From NCBI GenBank assembly GCA_026874595.1, contig CM049308.1:48739327-48803326 (forward strand): 64,000 nt of DNA. The letters run 5' to 3'. Below the pieces are notes generated by a model. The model was not told where the DNA came from. It searched no databases and was given only the letters and a program-made list of their open reading frames with translations. This document shows positions 16,431 through 63,033 of the stretch, piece by piece; position 1 is the first letter of the stretch, and each line of letters begins with the position of its first letter. The position numbers and the translations under genes are program-made. The DNA comes from Sipunculus nudus. Lineage: Eukaryota; Annelida; Sipuncula; Golfingiida; Sipunculidae.

Positions 16431-18489
16431 CTAGATGTGTCGGAACGACACGAATGCCCCCGCCTGGGGCAAATTAGAAACATTTGTTAAATTTTGTAAA
16501 TTTTTTAAGTTCAGGAGGTGTTGTATGGTCAAAAGTAGGTCAAGAAGGGCAAAATGCAAACTCGATCTGAAACGGGTCATTATCAAGCAACACACCAAAA
16601 ATCAGGCCAGTATGCAGGCATTGTGAAAAAAAGTGCGTATACATGTGCATTTTTCATAAAAATTTCTGTCTTTCATGAAATTTTCTATGTTCAGGATCTG
16701 TCATATGGTCAAAAATAGGTTAACTGGGACGAAACGCAAACTTGATCTGTAAGTGGTCATTATGCACCCACAGACCAAACATTGGGCCAGTATCTGTAAG
16801 CTTTGCATTGCGAAACTAGAATATTAGCAAAAGCTGATAATCAGTTATAAATTTAAATCTGAGAGGTATGTACCATGTTTTATAACAATCCACCAAATGC
16901 TTCCTGAGAAATATCCCCCTAAGATTTTTTCTATACTAAGCTCTGTGACCTTGAAAAGTAGGTCAAGACCACCCATCTTTGAACTTGACCAAGATTTTGT
17001 AAATATGATGCAAAAGCACTGAAGTAATGAAGTTCCTTAGTTGAATACCTTTGGAGATATCATGCACAAAAGGCCAAAATTGAAAAATCCGATAAAATTT
17101 CATTAAAAAATCAGAATTTGCAGGTGACACCACCAAAATTGTGCAGCACGTACAGACCATCAGTCCAAATGATCATAGTAAGTTTTGTGAAAATCCACAC
17201 AATGGTTCCTGAGATATAAGCTTCTGAGTGTTTTCTATAATCAGCTCTAAAATGTAGAAAAATGGGTCATGGTCACCCATCTTCGAACTTGACCGAGATT
17301 TTATCGATAAACATCTTCACTGATGAAAAAAATTCCAAAGGGGAATCCTTTTAGAGATATCCCACTCACAAGGTAAAAGTTAACAGATGCGGAACGGACT
17401 GACAGACGGACACCCGACAGACAGATGGGCGGACGGATAAACGGACAGCTTGGGTGACGACAATAGCCCATCAGCCTATGAGCTGAGGGCTAAAAACGGC
17501 TGTACATGTACATTTGTCATGAAAATTTCTATTTTTCATGAAATTTTCTATGTTTAGGAGCCATAAAACAATCAAAAGTAGGTCAACCGGGACGAAACGC
17601 GAACTCGATCTGCAACTGGTCATTATCTGTCTATACACCAAAAATCAGGCCAATATCTGCAGGCATTGCGAAAAAAAGTCAGTACATGTGTATTTGTCAT
17701 GAAAATTTATATTTTTTATGAAATTTTCTGTTTAGGAGCCGTAAAACGGTCAAAAGTAGGTCAACTGGGACAAAACGCGAACTCGATCTGTAACTGGTCA
17801 TTATCTGCATACACACCAAAAATCAGGCCAATATCTGCAGGCATTGCGAAAAAAAGTCCGTACATGTATATTTGTCATGAAAATTTCTATTTTTCATGAA
17901 ATTTTCTACGTTAAGGAGCCGTAAATGGTCAAAAGTAGGTCAACCGGGACGAAACGCAAACTCGATCTGTAACTGGTCATTATCTGGCCACACACCAAAA
18001 ATCAGGCCAATACCTGCAGGCACTGCGAAAAAAAGTCCGTACATGTGTATTTGTCATGAAAATTTCTATTTTTCATGAAATTTTCTAAGTTAAGGAGCTG
18101 TAAAACGGTCAAAAGTAGGTCAACCAGGACGAAACGCGAACTCCATCTGTAACTGGTCATTATCTGCCAAAACACCAAAAATCAGGCCAATATCTGCAGG
18201 CATTGCGAAAAAAAGTCCGTACATGTGTATTTGTCATGAAAATTTCTATTTTTCATGAAATTTTCTAAGTTTTGGAGCTGTGAAACGGTCAAAGGTAGGT
18301 CAACTTGGACGAAACGCGAACTCGATCTGTAACTGGTCATTATCTGCCCACACACTAAAAACCAGGCTAATATCTGCAGGCATTGCGAAAAAAAGTCCGT
18401 ACAACTGTTTGATTTCGGTAGGACGGAAGGACGGAATGACGGACATGGGTAAAACTATATGCCCCGGCTACTTTGTGGCAGGGGCATAA
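16431..18489 (-). mobile_element. RC-5, pearl-like element with ~188-bp tandem core
   Basis: On the minus strand the 3' end is the hairpin GTGTCG-ttc-CGACAC followed by AT, CTAG and T (16431-16450). The other end is a TGCCCC...GGGGCA hairpin at about 18460-18486 preceded by an ACGG-type stretch (18419-18445). Between them lie about seven units of 188 bp with 'gtcaaaagtaggtcaac', 'gacgaaacgcgaactcgatc', 'aatcaggccaatatctgcag' and 'catgaaattttct'. Tandem cores plus an ACGG microsatellite match what is known of bivalve 'pearl' elements. An RC-6 copy is nested inside at 16816-17494. Confidence 0.75.
16816..17494 (-). mobile_element. RC-6 element nested in RC-5
   Basis: The left end (CTAGAATATTAGC) is the minus-strand 3' terminus CTAG, followed by T. 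The right end carries GCCCATCAGCCTATGAGCTGAGGGC, a long imperfect hairpin (the ACGG-like stretch is at 17398-17445). It interrupts the RC-5 unit between 'gcattgcgaaa' and its continuation 'cgtacatgt', which is intact in the other units. RC-6 also occurs at 31007-32034. Confidence 0.7.
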
Positions 18490-25751: not shown

Positions 25752-27509
25752 CAAGACATTGAGCTGGTGGTTCATATTGTCTCAAGCAAGACATTAACCT
25801 GGTGTCATATTGTCTCAAACAAGATATTTGGTTTATAGTGTCATACTGTTTTAAGCAAGACATTAAGCTGATTGTTTCATATTGTCTTAAGCTGGACATT
25901 CACCTGATGGTGTCATATTGTCTCAAGCAAGACATAAAACTGATGGTGTCATATTGTCTCAAGCAAGACATAAAGCTGATGATGTCATATTGTCTCAAGC
26001 AAGACCTTAAAGCTGATGATGTCATATTGTCTCAAGCAAGACATAAAGCTGATGGTGTCATATTGTCTCAAGCAAGACATAAAGCTGATGGTGTCATATT
26101 GTCTCAAGCAAGACCTTAAGCTGATGATGTCATATTGTCTCAAGCAAGACCTTAAAGCTGATGGTGTCATATTGTCTCAAGCAAGACATAAAGCTGATGG
26201 TGTCATATTGTCTCAAGCAAGAATTTAAGCTGATGATGTCATATTGTCTCAAGCAAGACATAAAGCTGATGATGTCATATTGTCTCAAGCAAGACATAAA
26301 GCTGATGATGTCATATTGTCTCAAGCAAGACATAAAGCTGATGATGTCATATTGTCTCAAGCAAGACATAAAGCTGATGATGTCATATTGTCTCAAGCAA
26401 GACATAAAGCTGATGGTGTCATATTGTCTCATGCAAGACATAAAGCTGATGATGTCATATTGTCTCAAGCAAGACCTTATGCTGATGATGTCATATTGTC
26501 TCAAGCAAGACCTTAAAGCTGATGATGTCATATTGTCTCAAGCAAGACATAAAGCTGATGGTGTCATATTGTCTCAAGCAAGACATAAAGCTGATGGTGT
26601 CATATTGTCTCAAGCAAGACATAAAGCTGATGATGTCATATTGTCTCAAGCAAGACATAAAGCTGATGGTGTCATATTGTCTCAAGCAAGACATTAAGCT
26701 GACGATGTCATATTGTCTCAAGCAAGACATAAAGCTGATGATGTCATATTGTCTCAAGCAAGACCTTAAAGCTGATGATGTCATATTGTCTCAAGCAAGA
26801 CCTTAAGCTGATGGTGTCATATTGTCTCAAGCAAGACCTTAAGCTGATGATGTCATATTGTCTCAAGCAAGACATAAAGCTGATGATGTCATATTGTTTC
26901 AAGCAAAACCTTAAGCTGATGATGTCATATTGTCTCAAGCAAGACCTTAAGCTGACGATGTCATATTGTCTCAAGCAAGACCTTAAGCTGATGGTGTCAT
27001 ATTGTCTCAAGCAAGACCTTAAGCTGATGGTGTCATATTGTCTCAAGCAAGACCTTAAGCTGATGATGTCATATTGTCTCAAGCAAGACCTTAAGCTGAT
27101 GGTGTCATATTGTCTCAAGCAAGACCTTAAGCTGATGATAACATATTGTCTCAAGCAAGACCTTTAGCTGATGGTGTCATATTGTCTCAAGCAAGACATA
27201 AAGCTGATGGTGTCATATTGTCTCAAGCAAGACCTTAAGCTGATGATGTCATATTGTCTCAAGCAAGACATAAAGCTGATGATGTCATATTGTCTCAAGC
27301 AAGACATAAAGCTGATGATGTCATATTGTCTCAAGCAAGACATAAAGCTGATGATGTCATTTTGTCTCAAGCAAGACATCAAGCTGATGATGTCATATTG
27401 TCTCAAGCAAGACATAAAGCTGATGATGTCATATTGTCTCAAGCAAGACATGAAGCTGATGGTTTCATATTGTCTCAAGCAAGACATAAAGCTGATGGTG
27501 TCATATTGG
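25752..27509. repeat. 36-bp minisatellite, about 49 units, in P450 intron
   Basis: The unit is 36 bp, with core TGATGTCATATTGTCTCAAG plus CAAGACATAAAGCTGA. Variants include GATGG/GATGA, CCTTAAG and a 37-bp CCTTAAAG form. Units at the left edge are more diverged, and the centre is nearly homogeneous. Because 36 is divisible by three and the unit lacks stops in several frames, long open frames occur on both strands. These are not genes. It lies in the 4.4-kb intron between the exons at 25472 and 29880. Confidence 0.95.
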
Positions 27510-40715: not shown

Positions 40716-40795
40716 TGTAACAGGTGAAAATTGAAACCAGGCCCGAATGTGGGTTCGAACCCGTAACCTGTGACACACAAGTCAGACATTCTACC

Positions 40796-41720
40796 ATAGC
40801 CTTGCCTGGGCTTTAGTGTATTGATGTTTACTGCTAAAATGCTTCAAATGAAACGTGATTTCATGTACCGATAGACTCGACGTAACTTAGTTCTAGCTCT
40901 TATCACTAAAGCCCTGTAAAGTCTGTATGGCCATTCCCTTATATTTGCATATTAGGGCGTCACAAGGCTCCTGACGATTCCCTCACATTTGCATATCAGG
41001 CCACCTAGCCTCCTGTGAATGGCATCTTGCTATAAGGAGGCTAACAGCATCCTGTAGGCAATATACAGCTCAGCCCGCTTGATAATATTCGCACTGAAAT
41101 CATGCATGTTTTTAGAAAGTCCATACATAGACCTTCATGTCCTATGATATATCTCTGCTGTTCGAACATACGGTCCATGGGCAAATTTAAATGTATTGTA
41201 GACAATGTTGCATCGATTTTGTTCTGTGTATTTGTTAGTGTTCAAGTTACACATGAAAGTTTTGCCACTGTTGAGTTCCCAACATGCTTAACGTTGTGAC
41301 CGTTTCAGTCAGCCCGTGCATAAATAGCAGTTGTGACTGTGTTCGTCGCGTGTGGACCTGAATATCTCACGCTGATTGGCTGAGCTGGAGACACATTTTA
41401 AACCAGCCTTCTGCGATAAGCAATGGTCTGAAAAACGGTGACACACTGACTCACTGAGGCTGAGGGTTTTATATAGTGTAAAAAATCTTGCCGTACTCAA
41501 ATAGCCGAGGACCTAAACATATTAAGACTGAAAGCCCACAATAGACAGTTACTGAATCAACCATGTTGGTTTTGAGAAAAAGATTCTTGCAAAGACCACT
41601 ATAATTACTCCTTGCGTCACTGGGAAAGACCTTAGTTCAGCCAGGCGGTGATGTGTGGCTTTGACTGTGAGAGCTGTTTGATATCTCTGTCAAAGCAGTT
41701 TCATTGACTGGGCCAGTCTA
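40796..41720. mobile_element. hAT-like insertion splitting the TRIM 3' LTR
   Basis: It is flanked by perfect 8-bp repeats ATTCTACC (40788-40795, 41721-41728). Deleting the 925-bp insert plus one repeat restores a gap-free match to the other LTR. The inverted ends are short and imperfect (TAGCCTTGCC against TAGACTGGCCC read inward). The interior is unique in this window and more balanced in base composition. No transposase is visible. Confidence 0.8.
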
Positions 41721-41918
41721 ATTCTACCGCTTCGCTAATAAAGTAAGCTTCACTAGCAAGGCCAGTAGGAACCCTTTTGTGTGACCGGTTACATTCATCC
41801 CCTCTCCCAGGACGTTCTGTCCCCAGAACGCGGGAATCTATCCCAGGGGTCACACAAGTGAACTGGGTGGGGCATTATGCCACAACACCAACTCCCCTGA
41901 TCCCACCACTGCCACCAT

Positions 41919-42063
41919 TGTAACAGGTGAAAACAGAAACCAAGCCCGAATGTGGGTTCAAACCTGTAACCTGTGACATATAAGTCAGACGTTCTACCGC
42001 TTCGCTAATAAAGCAAGCTTCACTAGCAAGGCCAGTAGGAACCCTTTTGTGTGTCCGGTTACA
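41919..42063 (-). promoter_or_regulatory. LTR with tRNA-like A and B boxes (intact copy)
   Basis: The A box is on the minus strand at 42007-41996 (TAGCGAAGCGGT, against the eukaryotic TRGYNNARNNGG). The B box is at 41964-41954 (GGTTTGAACCC, against GGTTCGANNCC). The 43-base offset equals that of a tRNA gene. T-stem pairing is poor, so it is not a functional tRNA. Transcription is inference. Confidence 0.6.
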
Positions 42064-44237
42064 TTTATAAACTAGAGCAATAACTGAGAAGTCTGATCTT
42101 GATTTATCTGAATATTTACTCATTATGGTAAGACTACACAAATATTAGTAATATTTAAGAAGACATCGTTCAGCCTAACAATATCTCCAAAAGTTTATCA
42201 AAGGGTTGGCACAGAATAACTGATAACATTCATGGGTTGGCTGGATGCAGACCTGGGAATAAGGGCCGAATCACACACAAACAGTGCTCAGGTAATTGAG
42301 AGCATCTTAAGCATGGCCATGATGTGTCCAGATATTCAAGGTTCTACTTTGTATATTATGAATGTTTTTGTTTGCCCTACTTGGTGTGTTACATATTCAT
42401 TTGAAAATTCACTTGACCTGTGTTAATTATTGGTGTATGGATCACTTGTCACCCAAATGTTGCAATGATATACTCCTTAAGCTGGATGCTGCAGTAAAAT
42501 ATATCATATTTAGCCCAAACAATAAATTAACTCTTCAATGCAATTGATGGTTCTATTTTACAAGGATCAAGTTTTTATGAATGAGGCTTCAGAAAAGTTG
42601 CTATTTTTGTTCATAAAGGTATCATAACAAATGGACTAAATTCTGAGTTTCCTACATGTGCCTTTGAACCACATATTGTGTTCTCCCTGAAAGGTTGAAA
42701 CATTTTTCTCCTTTGTCTCTAATAATAAATTTTCATAAAAATAAAAAAAAATACCCCACTCACTCAGTGTTAACCATATATTCTGAAGAATAATTTTTAC
42801 TTGCTGTTGCCTTTTTTATGTATTATTTTGTATTTATTGATTTATTAGAGACATTCCTTAACTGAATTAAGTACCATTATAATTAGCTTATCAATTACAA
42901 AATAAATCACATGATTAACTCAGATATCAGGACAGCCTATCTAGTCCTGGCTGGTCCTGTTTAAATTGGTTAAAGTTATCTTTATTATAATTCATTATGT
43001 GATACTATAAGAGATGCCAATGAGATCTACTTAATATATATGCATTTTGTTGCAATCTGTAGAAAAAAAGGAAGTTTTGCTGATGTTGTATCTGTCTTGT
43101 TCCTTTGGGATCTTATTAAATGAGACATTGGGTATATTGTAAAACATCAGACCCCTGATATCCACTGATGAAATGAAATGCTCATGAAACCTGTTCATCC
43201 ACTGGTGTCATTGCTTCTCTTTTAGTAAAGTTTAGACAATGACTGAGAAGCTGTTTGTCACAGAATACCTGCTCCATCATGTGTGGTGTCAGTGGTTTGA
43301 ACTGAGGCTCTCAGCACCATGTAATGTACCACAGTGTTTGTGTTCAGGGTAATTATGGTACCCACAGGAGATATCTTCCCAAGTATTTTGCAGGAGTTGT
43401 TACATCAAAATATCAGTGTTTACCAAATATAATCATATTTGTAGGCAAATTGTGGTTAATTTGATAAATTTCTCAACAAGGCACATTGTTATTCATACTG
43501 CTAAGTTTAGCTGAAAAAGGTAAAATGATCTGTAATTAACAGATATATCATATTTACAATCCACAAGTCACTTTCAAAGTCTGGATGTCAGAAAAGACGA
43601 GATAATATGGTTTTTACCTGAGTTTAATTACCCACAAAGTGTCCATTTCCCAGAGACAGGATTGCCAAGAACATGTAGAATGGTGAAGTCAAGGACCTCT
43701 AGTTTAAAATTAAATTGTAGGTGGCAAGTTTATATTCTTGCAGCTTCATCATGACAAATAAAAGCAATCTGGCATATATCATAACAAGTTATTTATGTTA
43801 AGATAATAAGACATTTAAATAAAGAGGTAAAATATCAAATATATGTGACCAGGCCTGATTGTATCTCATATGACTGATGATTTGACAAACGTATATAGGT
43901 TCCTTTTTGATATATTACAAATGGCCATGAAAATGGGAAAACAGTTGAAAGGATAGCATCAAAAGTGAATATTTGAATTCATCTGCCTTTTTTGTAATTA
44001 ATGAATGCAAGTGATTTTTTAATTAACACACTCTATAGTCTGGGAGTCTCAAAATTATACCACTAAATATTACCAACAACAAAGAAAATGTAGTTGTGAT
44101 CAATTAAATGTAACTATGTAATTCATGATTAAATTCGAAACAATTTGTCTAGAGGTTTATATCCCCCACTGTAAATGTGTTATATCTTATAATGGGGATG
44201 CTGGACTTGGACAAAAATATCAAATGTAGAATTTTAA
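42064..44237. other. Low-repeat 2.2-kb stretch, no gene proven
   Basis: It is AT-rich and largely free of the repeat families. I searched it for the missing N-terminal P450 exons (hinge P-G-P-P, FGER block) without success. Short open stretches at 42232-42290 (+) and 43240-43350 (+) end near GT dinucleotides but match nothing I know. Confidence 0.5.
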
Positions 44238-47803: not shown

Positions 47804-50800
47804 TTAGCTCAGCTGACTTTCAGTCATGCTGAGCTATAGCGATCACTCTTTGTCCGTCGTCCGTCTGTCCGTCCGTCTGTCTGTCCGTCTGTCCGTTAAC
47901 CTGGCACAAATCATAACCGCTGGACTTAGAATCTTGTTACTTTACATTCTGAGAGGTCAATGAAAAATCTCCTTGGAAACCAGAAATTAGGTCTCTGTTA
48001 CCCATATCCTTCGAGCTATGGGGCCCCAAAGTACCCCCCAGAAAAGTCGAAAAATTTCATACAAAAACTTCAATATCTCATTAACTACTTGACTGATGGT
48101 CATGATTTTTGGCATACATATTGATCATGAGATGTTCCATCAGTTCCTGAGGACTGGTGGCGCCACCTGTATTTTTCAATTTTTTACGAATTTTTTTCTC
48201 TAGTTTTGATACCTTTAAAAATGTGAACATCTGTTAACAAGGCACAAATCGTAACGACTGGATCTAGAATCTTCATTCTCGACATACTGAGAGACCTATG
48301 GAAAGTCTCCATGGAAACCAGAAATTAGGTCTCTGTTACCCATATTCTTTGAGCTATGGGGCCCCAAAGTACCCCCCAGAAAAGTAAAAAATTTCATACA
48401 AAAACTTCAATATCTCATTAACTACTTGACTGATGGTCTTGATTTGTGGCATAACTATTGATCATGAGATGTGTCATCACTTCCTGCAGACTGGTGGCGC
48501 CACCTGTATCGTTGGATTTTTTATGAATTTTTTTCTCTATTTTTGAGACCTTTAAGGATGCTGTCATCTGTTAGCGTGGCACAAATCGTAACGACTGCAC
48601 CTAGAATCTTCATTCTTGACACACTGAGAGACCTATGAAAAGTCTCCATGGAAACCAGAAATTAGGTCTCTGTTACCCATATCCATCGTGATATGGGGCC
48701 CCAAAGTACCCCCCAGAGTAGTCAAAAATTTCATACAAAAACTTCAATATCTCAATAACTACATCACTGATGGTCATGATTTTTGGGATACATATTGATC
48801 AAGAGGTGTTTCATCAGTTCTTGCAGACTGGTGGCACAACCTGTATTTGTTCGGTTTTTTTTTTAACGATTTTTTCCTCTATTTTTGAGACCTTTAAGGA
48901 TGCTGTCATCTGTTAGCGTGGCACAAATCGTAACGACTGGATCTAGAATCTTCATTCTCGATACACTGAGAGACCTATGAAAAGTGTCCATGGAAACCAG
49001 AAAATTAGGTCTCTGTTACACATATCCTTTGAGCTATGGGGCCCCAAAGTACCCCCCAGAGTAGTCAAAAATTTCATACAAAATCTTCAATATCTCAATA
49101 ACTACAACACTGATGGTCATGATTTTCGGCATACATATTTATCATGAGCTGTTCCATCACTTTCTGCAGACTGGGTGCGCCACCTCTATTTTTTTCAAAT
49201 TTTTACGAATTTTTTTTCTCTTTTTTGAGACCTTTAAAGATGTGGTTATCTGTCAACAGGGTACAAATTGCAACAACTGGACCTAGAAACTTCATTCTTG
49301 TCATGCAAAGAGGCCCATGAAGAGTGCCTGTGGAAACTTGAAATTAGGTCTCTGTTACCCATATCCTTCAAGCTATAGGACTCTGAAGTATCCCTCAGAA
49401 TAATGGACAATTTGATACAAAATCTGAAGTATCTGAACAACTAATGCGGAGATCACCATGATTCTTTGCATGGATATTAACCATTAAGTGTTTTTATTAG
49501 TTTCTGCAGACTGATGGAGCCACCTGTTTTTTTGTATCCTCCAAAACAAAGTTTTGCAGATACTATGTTTTTGACCGGGTTCCTCCGCCGCCGCCACGTT
49601 TGTTTCCAGAGAGCTCCTCTGAGAAAAATGGACCGATTTTTCCGAAACTTACACCAATTATCTAGTCACATGTGAACTAGTGCCTAACCAATTTGTGTTG
49701 ATCTCTGACCTTTCCCCTCTATCCAGCGTCCATTTGTGCATCTGTTTCCACACATAAACCCTCATATCTCGGGAACCGATTGACCAATCAGGAAATAAAA
49801 TTTATACAAATGTAGCCCTTGGATTGCTTTATAACATACACAAAAATGGTGACGCCACCTGTAACCATGTTTGCACAGTGTCCATCTGTTCATCTGCCTT
49901 GGGTTAAAATCACTTATATCTCTGCAGTGAATTGACTAATTCACCTGAAATTCGGCATGCATATACATCCAGGATAGCTTTCTTGATTTTATGACAGATG
50001 GCACCACCTACATTCACGTTCAAGCTGATCACATCCAAGCTCATATCTCAGAAACTGTTTGACCGATTGGGCCAAAATGTTGCATGTGTATAGATATCAC
50101 ATAGCTCTTTATCATACGCAAAACTGGTGGCGCCACCTGTAACCATTTTTGCACAGCGTCTGTCTGTTTTTTGCCGTGGGATAATGTCACTCATCTCTCG
50201 GCAGTGGTTTGACTTATCTGCCTAAAATTTTGCAGTTTTATACATCCTGGATAGCTTTCTTGATTTTATGACAGGTGGCGCCACCTACATTCTAGTTTAC
50301 ACTGCAGACATCCGAGCTCATATCTCGGGAACCGTTTGAATGATTGGGCCAAAATTTTTCATGTGTATAGATCTCACATAGGTCAACTGGAGGGGCCACC
50401 TGTAACCATTTTTGCACAGCGTCTGTCTGTTTGTCTGCCCTTGGCTAAAATCACTCATACACATGTAGTGGTTTGACTTTTCTGCCTAAAATTTTGCATA
50501 TGTATACAACTTGGACATCTTTCTGGATTTGTGGTAGGTGGCACAACCTACATACACATTTAGGCTGCAGACATCCATGCTAATATACAACATACCTCAC
50601 TCTATTTCCCCTTGCCACTCAATCCATGCCTCACTTCAACCGTTCCACTCTGATTTTGGCGGATACACTTGGTCACTTGTCGGCTACCTGTATTCTAGTT
50701 TTTAAAGTTTACACATTTTTTCTCTATTTTTGAGATATATATAAATAAAGACTAAATCTTGGCCTGTTGGTTAATCTGTTTCATGCTTCAGTTGAATGGG

Positions 50801-61003: not shown

Positions 61004-63033
61004 CTAGACATTTCTTGGCACCGCAGGTGCCAGAGTATCCCCAGACATAGTAGCCCCCCCCCTTTCAGAATAGACCCCCATTTTTAGCAGCATATACTGA
61101 CACTTGGCAAATTTATTGTTTCTTCCATCTAACAATCCACAATCTTGTTGAAGATGTTGGTCCCGTGACCTTGACCTTTTTAAAGATGTGACCTGTGACC
61201 TTGACCTTTGACCTCATGTCCCCAAAATCAATTTGGATCTTGCTTATCCAATGGGACATATGCAAGTCAAGTTTGAAATCTATACATCAATAAAGCAGGA
61301 ATTATAATCGAGAAACTAATTTTTTTGGACAGATGGCTCCTGTGACCTTCACCTTTGACCTTGTGACCTCAAAATTGATAGTGTTCTTCCTCTCTTGGCA
61401 GGAGAACTATATGTGCAAGATGAAAGATCTGAAATGAAATGTTTGGCTGAAAATGCATCCACATCTTTCTAAAGATGTGTCCTGTGACCTTGACCTTTGA
61501 CCTTATGACCCCAAAATCAATTTTGGTCTTGCTTTTCCAATGGGACATATACAAGTCAAGTTTGAAATCCATACATCAATAAAAGCAGGAATTATCATCC
61601 AGAAACTAATTTTTGGACAGATGGCTCCTGTGACCTTCATCTTTGACCTTGTGACCTCAAAATTGATAGGGGTCTTCCACTCTTGGCAGGTGAACTATAT
61701 GTGCAAGATGAAAGATCTGAGATGAATTGTTTGGCTGTAAATGTATCCACAATCTTTTTAAAGAGGTTTCCTGTGACCTTGACCTTTGACCTCATGACCC
61801 CAAAATCAATTGGAGTCTTGCTTTTTTAATGGGACATATATAAGTCAAATTTGAAATCAATACATCAATAAAAGAAGGAATTATCATCCAGAAACTAATT
61901 TTTGGACAGATGGCTCCTGTGACCTTCACCTTTGACCTTGTGACCTCAAAACTGATAGGGGTCTTCCTCTCTTGGCTGGTGAACTATATGTGCAAGATGA
62001 AAGATCTGAGATGAAATGTTTGGCTGAAAATGCATCCACAATCTTTTTAAAGATGTGTCCTGTGACCTTGACCTTTGACCTCATGACCCCAAAATCAATT
62101 GGAGTCTTGCTTTTTTAATGGGACATATATAAGTCAAATTTGAAATCAATACATCAATAAAAGCAGGAATTATCATCCAGAAACTAATTTTTGGACAGAT
62201 AGCTCCTGTGGCCTTGACCTTTGACCTTGTGACCCCAAAATTTATATGGATCATCCACTATTGGCAAGTGAGCTATATATTCAAGACGGAAGACCTGGGA
62301 TGAAAGTTTGGCTTAAAATGCATCCACAGTATCTTTTAAAATGCCAGTCCAGTGACCTTGACCTTTGACCTCATGACCCTAGAACCTATAGGGTTCTTAC
62401 TTTAGTGGTGGGCAATACATAAGTTATGTTTGAAATCCATATGGCTATCAACACTGGAGATATCATAAGAGGTGCGTGATTTTCACCATATATGGCAATA
62501 TTCAAGGTCAAGGCCACTATCATAGGAAAGCTCATGACCCTAATTTAAAAAAACATCATCCCATAACCCATACCTATGTATATGCATAATATAAAAGAAA
62601 TCTGTCCATTAGTTTTTGACTTATAATGCTCACAGTACTGTAAGGTGGCAATTTTGGGGGTATTAAACGGCACGAAAAGAAGTATAGAATAATAGGTGGC
62701 GCCACCAGTTTCTGGAACATGAAAACCCTATCCATGATCTTCCATCAACTTGATTTTGGGATAAATCCATGCAAGATTTCTTGAGATATTAAAGAATTTG
62801 TGTGATTTTCCCCAAAATTGGACCTATTCAAGTCCAAGGACACTCTCCTAGTAAAGGTCATGACCTCATTTTAAATAGGCGTTGTCCTCTTACCCATATC
62901 TATACATATACCAAGTTTGGTAAAGTTCCGTGAAATATTTTTTGGGTTATCGCCCCAACAAGATTTATATGCAGCGGCGGCCGCGGGACCGGTATGAAAA
63001 CATAGTATCCCCCGACTTTGTCTGGGGATACAA
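61004..63033 (-). mobile_element. RC-4 Helitron-like element, complete, 2030 bp
   Basis: On the minus strand it begins TTGTATCCCCAGACAAAG (63033) and ends GGCACC-tgc-GGTGCC hairpin, nine bases, CTAG (61007-61004), then T. The insertion site is A|T. Flanks rejoin to GATTAAATAATGTTA, identical to the related uninserted copy at 12341-12355. Four internal units of about 293 bp each carry TGACCTTGACC(T)TTGACC-type strings. No Rep/helicase is encoded. Confidence 0.88.

Follow-up and report, generated by a model that had tools for sequence, protein, structure and literature searches.

Helenus elements are defined as TRIMs with tRNA-derived sequences in their LTRs (Kojima 2024, PMC10886601). According to the available portion of that paper, they range across six animal phyla, fungi, and a plant; the animal members include 51 families in pteriomorphian bivalves and others in fish, wasps, nemerteans, a brachiopod, and a ctenophore. 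Animal Helenus elements have 4-bp target duplications and Gypsy-like primer binding sites (PBSs), which are of the Lys, His, Ile, Pro, Glu, and Ser types in bivalves and of the Leu type in wasps and vertebrates. The same source aligns molluscan members with tRNA-Lys-TTT, notes solo LTRs as well as tandem arrays, and describes Pol III transcription as unvalidated.

Cassandra, a plant TRIM of 565 to 860 bp, carries a 5S rRNA-derived Pol III promoter in its LTRs (PMC10886601, available portion). In bivalves, biv-TRIM (Satovic et al. 2019, PMC6934838) is reported, in the available part of its description, to have TDRs of 202 to 218 bp, an interior of 77 to 80 bp, a polypurine tract (PPT) that is mostly GGGGAGA, and no clear PBS; that part makes no mention of Pol III boxes. 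PbTRIM of the harvester ant (PMC3532108) is also an animal TRIM, and the available part of its paper does not mention a tRNA-like part in the LTR.

We analyzed an element in a 64,000-nucleotide stretch of Sipunculus nudus DNA (the window) that a first-pass annotation had presented as a new architecture for an animal, namely, a TRIM with tRNA-type Pol III boxes in its LTRs. This architecture has already been published as Helenus, as the available text of PMC10886601 makes clear. Judged by its sequence, the window element is very probably a Helenus-type TRIM (TRIMp3), preserved here as an old and damaged copy, in which a tRNA-Lys-like LTR stretch is a likely internal Pol III promoter. We file the family as a Helenus member on its sequence-level features and claim no extension of the known range of Helenus.

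An old TRIM copy interrupted by an unrelated repeat

The 415-bp element lies on the minus strand of positions 40716 to 42063 and consists of 145-bp LTRs and a protein-less interior of 125 bp. Repeat comparison of 40716 to 42063 returned two direct repeats, of 80 nt (90%) and 77 nt (96%), that together make up the 145-bp unit. The first unit, at 41919 to 42063, is the 5′ LTR (TGTAAC...GTTACA), supported by the direct repeat and by genome matches. The second is the 3′ LTR, which the direct repeat places in two parts: its first 65 nt at 41729 to 41793 and its last 80 nt at 40716 to 40795, the latter also marked by the motif of a B box, GGTTCGAACCC, at 40751 to 40761. The two parts are separated by a 925-bp unrelated repeat (40796 to 41720), which is delimited by genome matches and by an 8-bp duplication, ATTCTACC, at 40788 to 40795 and 41721 to 41728. 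The annotation's description of the 145-bp repeats as gap-free therefore holds with the insert left out, but not for the LTR as it stands at 40716 to 41793, and the A and B boxes of the 3′ LTR are now far apart.

The remaining parts that had been described for the element, the TG...CA ends, a PBS one base off the LTR, and an abutting purine tract, are present on the minus strand. The noncoding interior, delimited by genome matches and interior lengths, spans 41794 to 41918. Its 18-nt PBS of the tRNA-Leu type lies one base past the 5′ LTR (41900 to 41917), and its PPT, GGGAGAGGGGATGAA (41794 to 41808), adjoins the 3′ LTR. Within the 5′ LTR, motif matches mark an A box, TAGCGAAGCGGT, at LTR positions 57 to 68 (41996 to 42007) and a B box, GGTTTGAACCC, at 41954 to 41964. 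A TTTT downstream of the B box, at 41930 to 41933, is a possible Pol III terminator.

Between the two LTRs of this copy there are 10 differences in 145 sites, including a C-to-T difference within the B box, and no target duplication was found at its outer ends (minus-strand flanks ataaa and tgtat). Because the LTRs have diverged to this extent and no target duplication is left, we consider the window TRIM an old, damaged copy.

A multicopy family with 4-bp target duplications

The 1.43-Gb genome (153 contigs) was searched with the LTR and with the interior. Its 15 large contigs of noted length (61 to 111 Mb) suggest about 17 contigs of chromosome size. Searches for Egg_lysin and Haemocyan_bet_s, meant to place the host, gave no match, nor did any control, and the bivalve host implied in the first pass was not confirmed. 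The LTR search gave 746 first-look candidates, of which 40 were scored, and 42 matches; the interior search gave 275 candidates, of which 40 were scored, and 40 matches. Both match counts include the window copy, and both candidate counts are rough. The 46 loci that we fetched comprise every remaining locus of the LTR list (26) and 20 additional ones found with the interior. Four interior matches (C1:12981414, C2:21783407, C3:23134953, and C5:81844861) were left out, and a TRIM/gypsy chimera at C5:83869283 (L053) stands outside this count.

An LTR-interior-LTR arrangement, under 1,000 bp and protein-less as in Helenus, was present at 41 of the 46 loci. In 36 of these a single interior lies between two LTRs, some of them truncated; the other 5 (L015, L016, L025, L038, and L046) are tandem or compound. 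Solo LTRs make up 3 loci (L008, L011, and L021), and one LTR is missing at 2 (L032 and L035). Among the 26 loci found via the LTR alone, 23 had the full arrangement and 3 were solo. Of 48 interiors measured, 40 were 124 or 125 nt long. A tRNA-complementary PBS beside the 5′ LTR and a PPT beside the 3′ LTR, also shared with Helenus, were exact in 43/48 interiors (all 18 nt) and in 42/48 (ending in AGAGGGGGTGAA), respectively. LTR pairs within one locus diverge by 0 to 12.9%, with no difference in 6 of 33 pairs. The TRIM family is multicopy, and the window copy is one old member of it.

Target duplications of 5 bp had been expected; those found are 4 bp long, as in animal Helenus, and were exact at 27 of the 37 loci whose outer LTR ends are complete. 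Exact duplications of 3 or 5 bp occurred at 0/37 loci, and the 10 of 6 bp were all TATATA. The 27 duplications were TATA (19), TACA (2), TATG (2), ATTC (1), CATA (1), TAAG (1), and ACTG (1). A partner-shuffled control gave a mean of 13.4 exact 4-bp duplications, a high value because the sites are TA rich; outside pure TA flanks, duplications were exact in 18/25 cases. The 10 loci lacking an exact 4-bp duplication were L002, L004, L005, L007, L011, L012, L023, L025, L035, and L044; three of these (L002, L025, and L035) have a purine tract as their 5′ neighbor and are therefore tandem or partial copies. Two of the three solo LTRs (L008 and L021) also have exact target duplications.

An alternative reading of these repeats would be that a tRNA-derived SINE or a tandem repeat merely resembles an LTR element, as the tRNA-like boxes and the five tandem or compound arrays might suggest. 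We regard this as extremely improbable. The LTRs are paired and accompanied by a PBS and a PPT, the 4-bp duplications lie outside both LTRs and recur at two of three solo LTRs, no A-rich tail follows the solo LTRs, and some copies contain a captured tRNA primer (see below). The pattern that the first-pass annotation had named as contrary to its reading, a 145-bp unit dispersed alone with an A-rich tail, was thus absent, and we rejected identity with a tRNA-derived SINE, which would consist of one unit ending in an A-rich or LINE-like tail, without an LTR pair. LTR/PBS/PPT structure, 4-bp duplications, solo LTRs, and tandem LTR-interior arrays are, on the evidence of the aligned copies, properties of this family. 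Solo and tandem forms are also known for biv-TRIM, a TRIM of bivalves, but identity with biv-TRIM was rejected on dimensions (145 and 125 bp here versus 202 to 218 and 77 to 80 bp in the available description).

Pol III-type boxes and tRNA likeness of the LTR

The A box TAGCGAAGCGG (LTR position 57) and the B box GGTTCGAACCC (LTR position 100) start 43 nt apart, the spacing noted in the first pass along with the single changed base in the other LTR. Among 100,000 dinucleotide-shuffled versions of the LTR, scored on both strands, a strict A-plus-B pair arose once and a loose pair 9 times. Conservation was evaluated in 88 LTRs (86 from the loci and 2 from the window), which were chosen by similarity to the window copy and many of which are young. 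A strict A box and B box 30 to 60 nt apart were present in 75 of the 88, the B box GGTTCGANNCC was present in 82, and the spacing was 43 in 81 of 84 measured LTRs. The boxes are those of Helenus, an A box (TRGCY, YGG) and a B box (GGTTC), with the fifth letter of the A box mostly G instead of the Y of TRGCY. Copies across the genome thus support the proposal that the LTRs carry a tRNA-type Pol III promoter sequence that is kept between copies. The analysis independently confirms that such a sequence inside LTRs is genuine and has been copied repeatedly in an animal-like genome.

The two boxes differ in conservation. Only 4 of 135 LTR segments, the B box itself included, match the conservation of the B box. 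The A box block falls below most of the LTR (3.5 versus 2.5 minority letters per column), with 115/134 LTR segments equaling or exceeding its conservation. This shortfall comes mainly from a single A/G site (64 to 24) at which the motif is preserved.

To what extent the LTR resembles a tRNA was assessed by alignment. Against the genome's own tRNA-Lys(TTT) (L106), tRNA positions 7 to 72, the LTR scored 39, compared with 16 for the antisense strand and 37 for the best of 300 shuffles, a narrow margin with many mismatches. Of seven tRNAs compared, three outscored every one of their own shuffles, namely tRNA-Lys, tRNA-Thr (from contig C121, 36 against 35), and tRNA-Met (32 against 30); the four others did not. 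A tRNA-derived LTR sequence is the defining Helenus trait, and here it takes this diverged form. ARAGORN detected no tRNA in the window, and Rfam searches of the window, of 41700 to 42100, and of 7 loci found no tRNA, the only matches lying far under the family cutoffs. By ARAGORN or Rfam, then, the tRNA-like part is not a working tRNA. Its predicted fold in the window copy was no better than that of shuffles (z, −0.47), and a tRNA-Thr pattern search gave no match.

tRNA genes themselves were encountered in several clusters. Contig C9 (40605435 to 40699894) holds 46 of 63 scored tRNA-family matches, mostly about 1.67 kb apart; the one locus of this cluster that was examined, L106, is the tRNA-Lys(TTT) gene with an adjoining tRNA-Met. 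The small contigs C115 and C121 (L099 and L103) contain dense tRNA clusters and may be bacterial contamination or symbiont DNA, because their tRNA genes end in an encoded CCA.

The poor fold, the many mismatches to tRNA-Lys, and the weak conservation of the A box block all speak for an account in which the TRIM is transcribed by Pol II and its tRNA-like stretch is an inert relic of a SINE that inserted into the LTR long ago. This account is unlikely in our judgment, since AATAAA/ATTAAA and TATA(A/T)A occur in none of the 88 LTRs, while the A and B boxes are kept together in 75 and the B box is among the most conserved stretches of the LTR.

Under the preferred reading, in which the boxes are an internal Pol III promoter, transcription would start near LTR position 45 to 50 in the 5′ LTR. 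TTTT follows the B box in 87/88 LTRs, 30 or 31 nt from the B-box start in 84 of the 87. One TTTT per 270 nt arises in about 40% of shuffles, so that one per unit is common by chance, and the LTR antisense strand also has one; the TTTT count alone was accordingly dropped as a terminator mark. The motif could still act as a weak Pol III stop. Because it is also present in the 5′ LTR, a full-length Pol III RNA would need read-through: some transcripts would pass the 5′ LTR TTTT and stop at that of the 3′ LTR, and from such a start and stop an R region of about 85 to 90 nt would follow. A gypsy-type element would supply Gag, RT, and integrase in trans, and the TRIM RNA would be converted to DNA and then inserted. 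Like Cassandra as described in the available text, the window family has a likely Pol III promoter in its TRIM LTR and is predicted to have a short R region that recurs at each end of the RNA, but the promoter here is tRNA-like, whereas that of Cassandra is 5S rRNA derived. Consistent with this difference, Rfam gave no 5S match, as would correspond to the 5S part of Cassandra or Ajax, at the gathering score in the window or at E values up to 10 in 41700 to 42100 and 7 loci.

Copies that captured the tRNA-Leu primer

The PBS, TGGTGGCAGCGGTGGGAT, is exactly complementary to the last 18 nt, at the 3′ end, of tRNA-Leu(AAG) plus CCA, and ARAGORN identified a tRNA-Leu(AAG) gene in L060. In this respect the family is unlike bivalve Helenus, the available text giving tRNA-Leu for wasp and vertebrate members (PMC10886601).

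An exact-pattern search for LTR/PBS junctions found 62. The TRIM interior, in its usual or a variant form, follows at 57 of them (one such junction, on C13, was checked individually), tRNA-Leu sequence at 4, and a gypsy-type element at 1. The 62 are not a full census, because the pattern demands an exact LTR end and PBS; it is also blind to families whose fifth base past the PBS is C. In L022 (46/47 nt) and L085 (45/47 nt), tRNA-Leu sequence continues past the PBS and is followed by the interior from its position 29; in L025 (57/58 nt) and L084 (50 nt), it is followed by other DNA.

Reverse transcription of a tRNA primer usually stops at m1A58. As read from their junctions, the four tRNA-Leu-bearing copies record a primer copied past this usual A58 stop and thereby show the primer directly: tRNA-Leu(AAG) is, on this evidence, the primer really copied. 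L084 consists, at its positions 443 to 640, of a lone TRIM LTR, the PBS, and 50 nt of tRNA-Leu complement followed by the other DNA, with no clear duplication, and resembles an integrated plus-strand strong-stop product.

A different PBS occurs in 3 of 48 interiors (first 24 nt), TGGTGTCAGAAGTGGGAT in L016 and L040 and TGGTGTCAGTCGTGGGAT in L026; perhaps another tRNA-Leu isoacceptor serves as primer for these. In a separate observation, a search with the 3′ half of a tRNA-Leu gave 62 matches, 52 of which share one 46-kb cluster on contig C5 (52590729 to 52636326); this cluster is therefore probably a tandem tRNA-Leu gene array.

A TRIM/gypsy chimera and candidate helpers

A PBS pattern built to exclude ordinary TRIM copies hit 64 places, at least 3 of which were still TRIM variants. 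Two LTR families, groups A and C, share the PBS and the TGTA...GTTACA ends of the TRIM. Group A has a 335-bp LTR, most copies of which lie at a distance of about 5.65 kb from each other; its search gave 105 first-look candidates, of which 40 were scored. Group C has an LTR of about 1.18 kb, and in most pairs the distance is about 9.65 kb; its search gave 34 candidates and 37 matches. It encodes a zinc-knuckle ORF followed by RT, RNase H, and integrase domains, the order typical of gypsy elements. Exact 4-bp duplications were present in 8 of 9 group C copies examined, none of the 8 being TATA; the 6/6 examined in group A were ATAT (4), ATAC, and GTAT, a different phase from the TATA of the TRIM. 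With respect to mobilization by gypsy, a trait of animal Helenus, the PBS, the TGTA/TACA ends, and 4-bp duplications are common to the TRIM and two LTR families, one of them shown to be gypsy type, while target preference differs.

The chimera, at about C5:83859530 to 83870580, has a TRIM interior and a TRIM LTR between a group C 5′ LTR and a group C interior. Both borders fall at the 18-nt PBS common to the TRIM and group C. The TRIM part is 99.0% (interior) and 97.9% (LTR) identical to the nearest fetched TRIM copies. Because the outer 4-bp duplications match (TTAT) and the chimera's LTRs differ at only 1 site in the last 488 bp compared, the composite looks integrated as a unit.

The simplest reading suggested by the chimera is that a TRIM and a group C element were reverse transcribed together, with strand transfer at the PBS. 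Taken with the tRNA capture copies, it may be one of several frozen reverse transcription products of a TRIM packaged with group C gypsy RNA, primed by tRNA-Leu(AAG), and recombining at the PBS during strand transfer. We give this combined reading an even chance; if true, it would be physical evidence naming a helper of an animal Helenus.

The chimera could instead have arisen at the DNA level, when a gypsy copy already integrated recombined with a TRIM circle or array, in which case it would say nothing of copackaging. This is plausible, although we lean against it. Only a single chimera event was found, and none of the 62 junctions joins group A despite its shared PBS and its more numerous LTR candidates (105 versus 34). 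The target duplications also fit, being TATA in 19 of 27 TRIM cases versus 0 of 8 exact group C cases, a disparity that counts against group C as the usual helper. DNA-level recombination accounts less readily for two borders that both fall at an 18-nt identity, a natural strand transfer site, and for the apparent integration of the composite as a unit. Group A was itself considered as a helper and set aside, given its absence from the 62 junctions and its ATAT-type duplications.

Neither primer capture copies nor a TRIM/gypsy chimera is mentioned in the available text of PMC10886601, and we found no account of PBS template switch chimeras or tRNA primer capture in the literature, which is weak evidence of their absence from print. 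Together, the capture copies and the chimera provide a concrete helper candidate, so that packaging of Pol III-type TRIMs becomes testable.

Other repeats in the window

The 925-bp repeat that interrupts the 3′ LTR is dispersed, with 2,486 first-look candidates in the genome; of 40 scored, 39 begin at base 1 to 3 of 40796 to 41720. The window also contains a 36-bp tandem repeat of 48.8 copies at 25752 to 27508 and other arrays at 17502 to 18403, 47895 to 49443, and 61176 to 62379.
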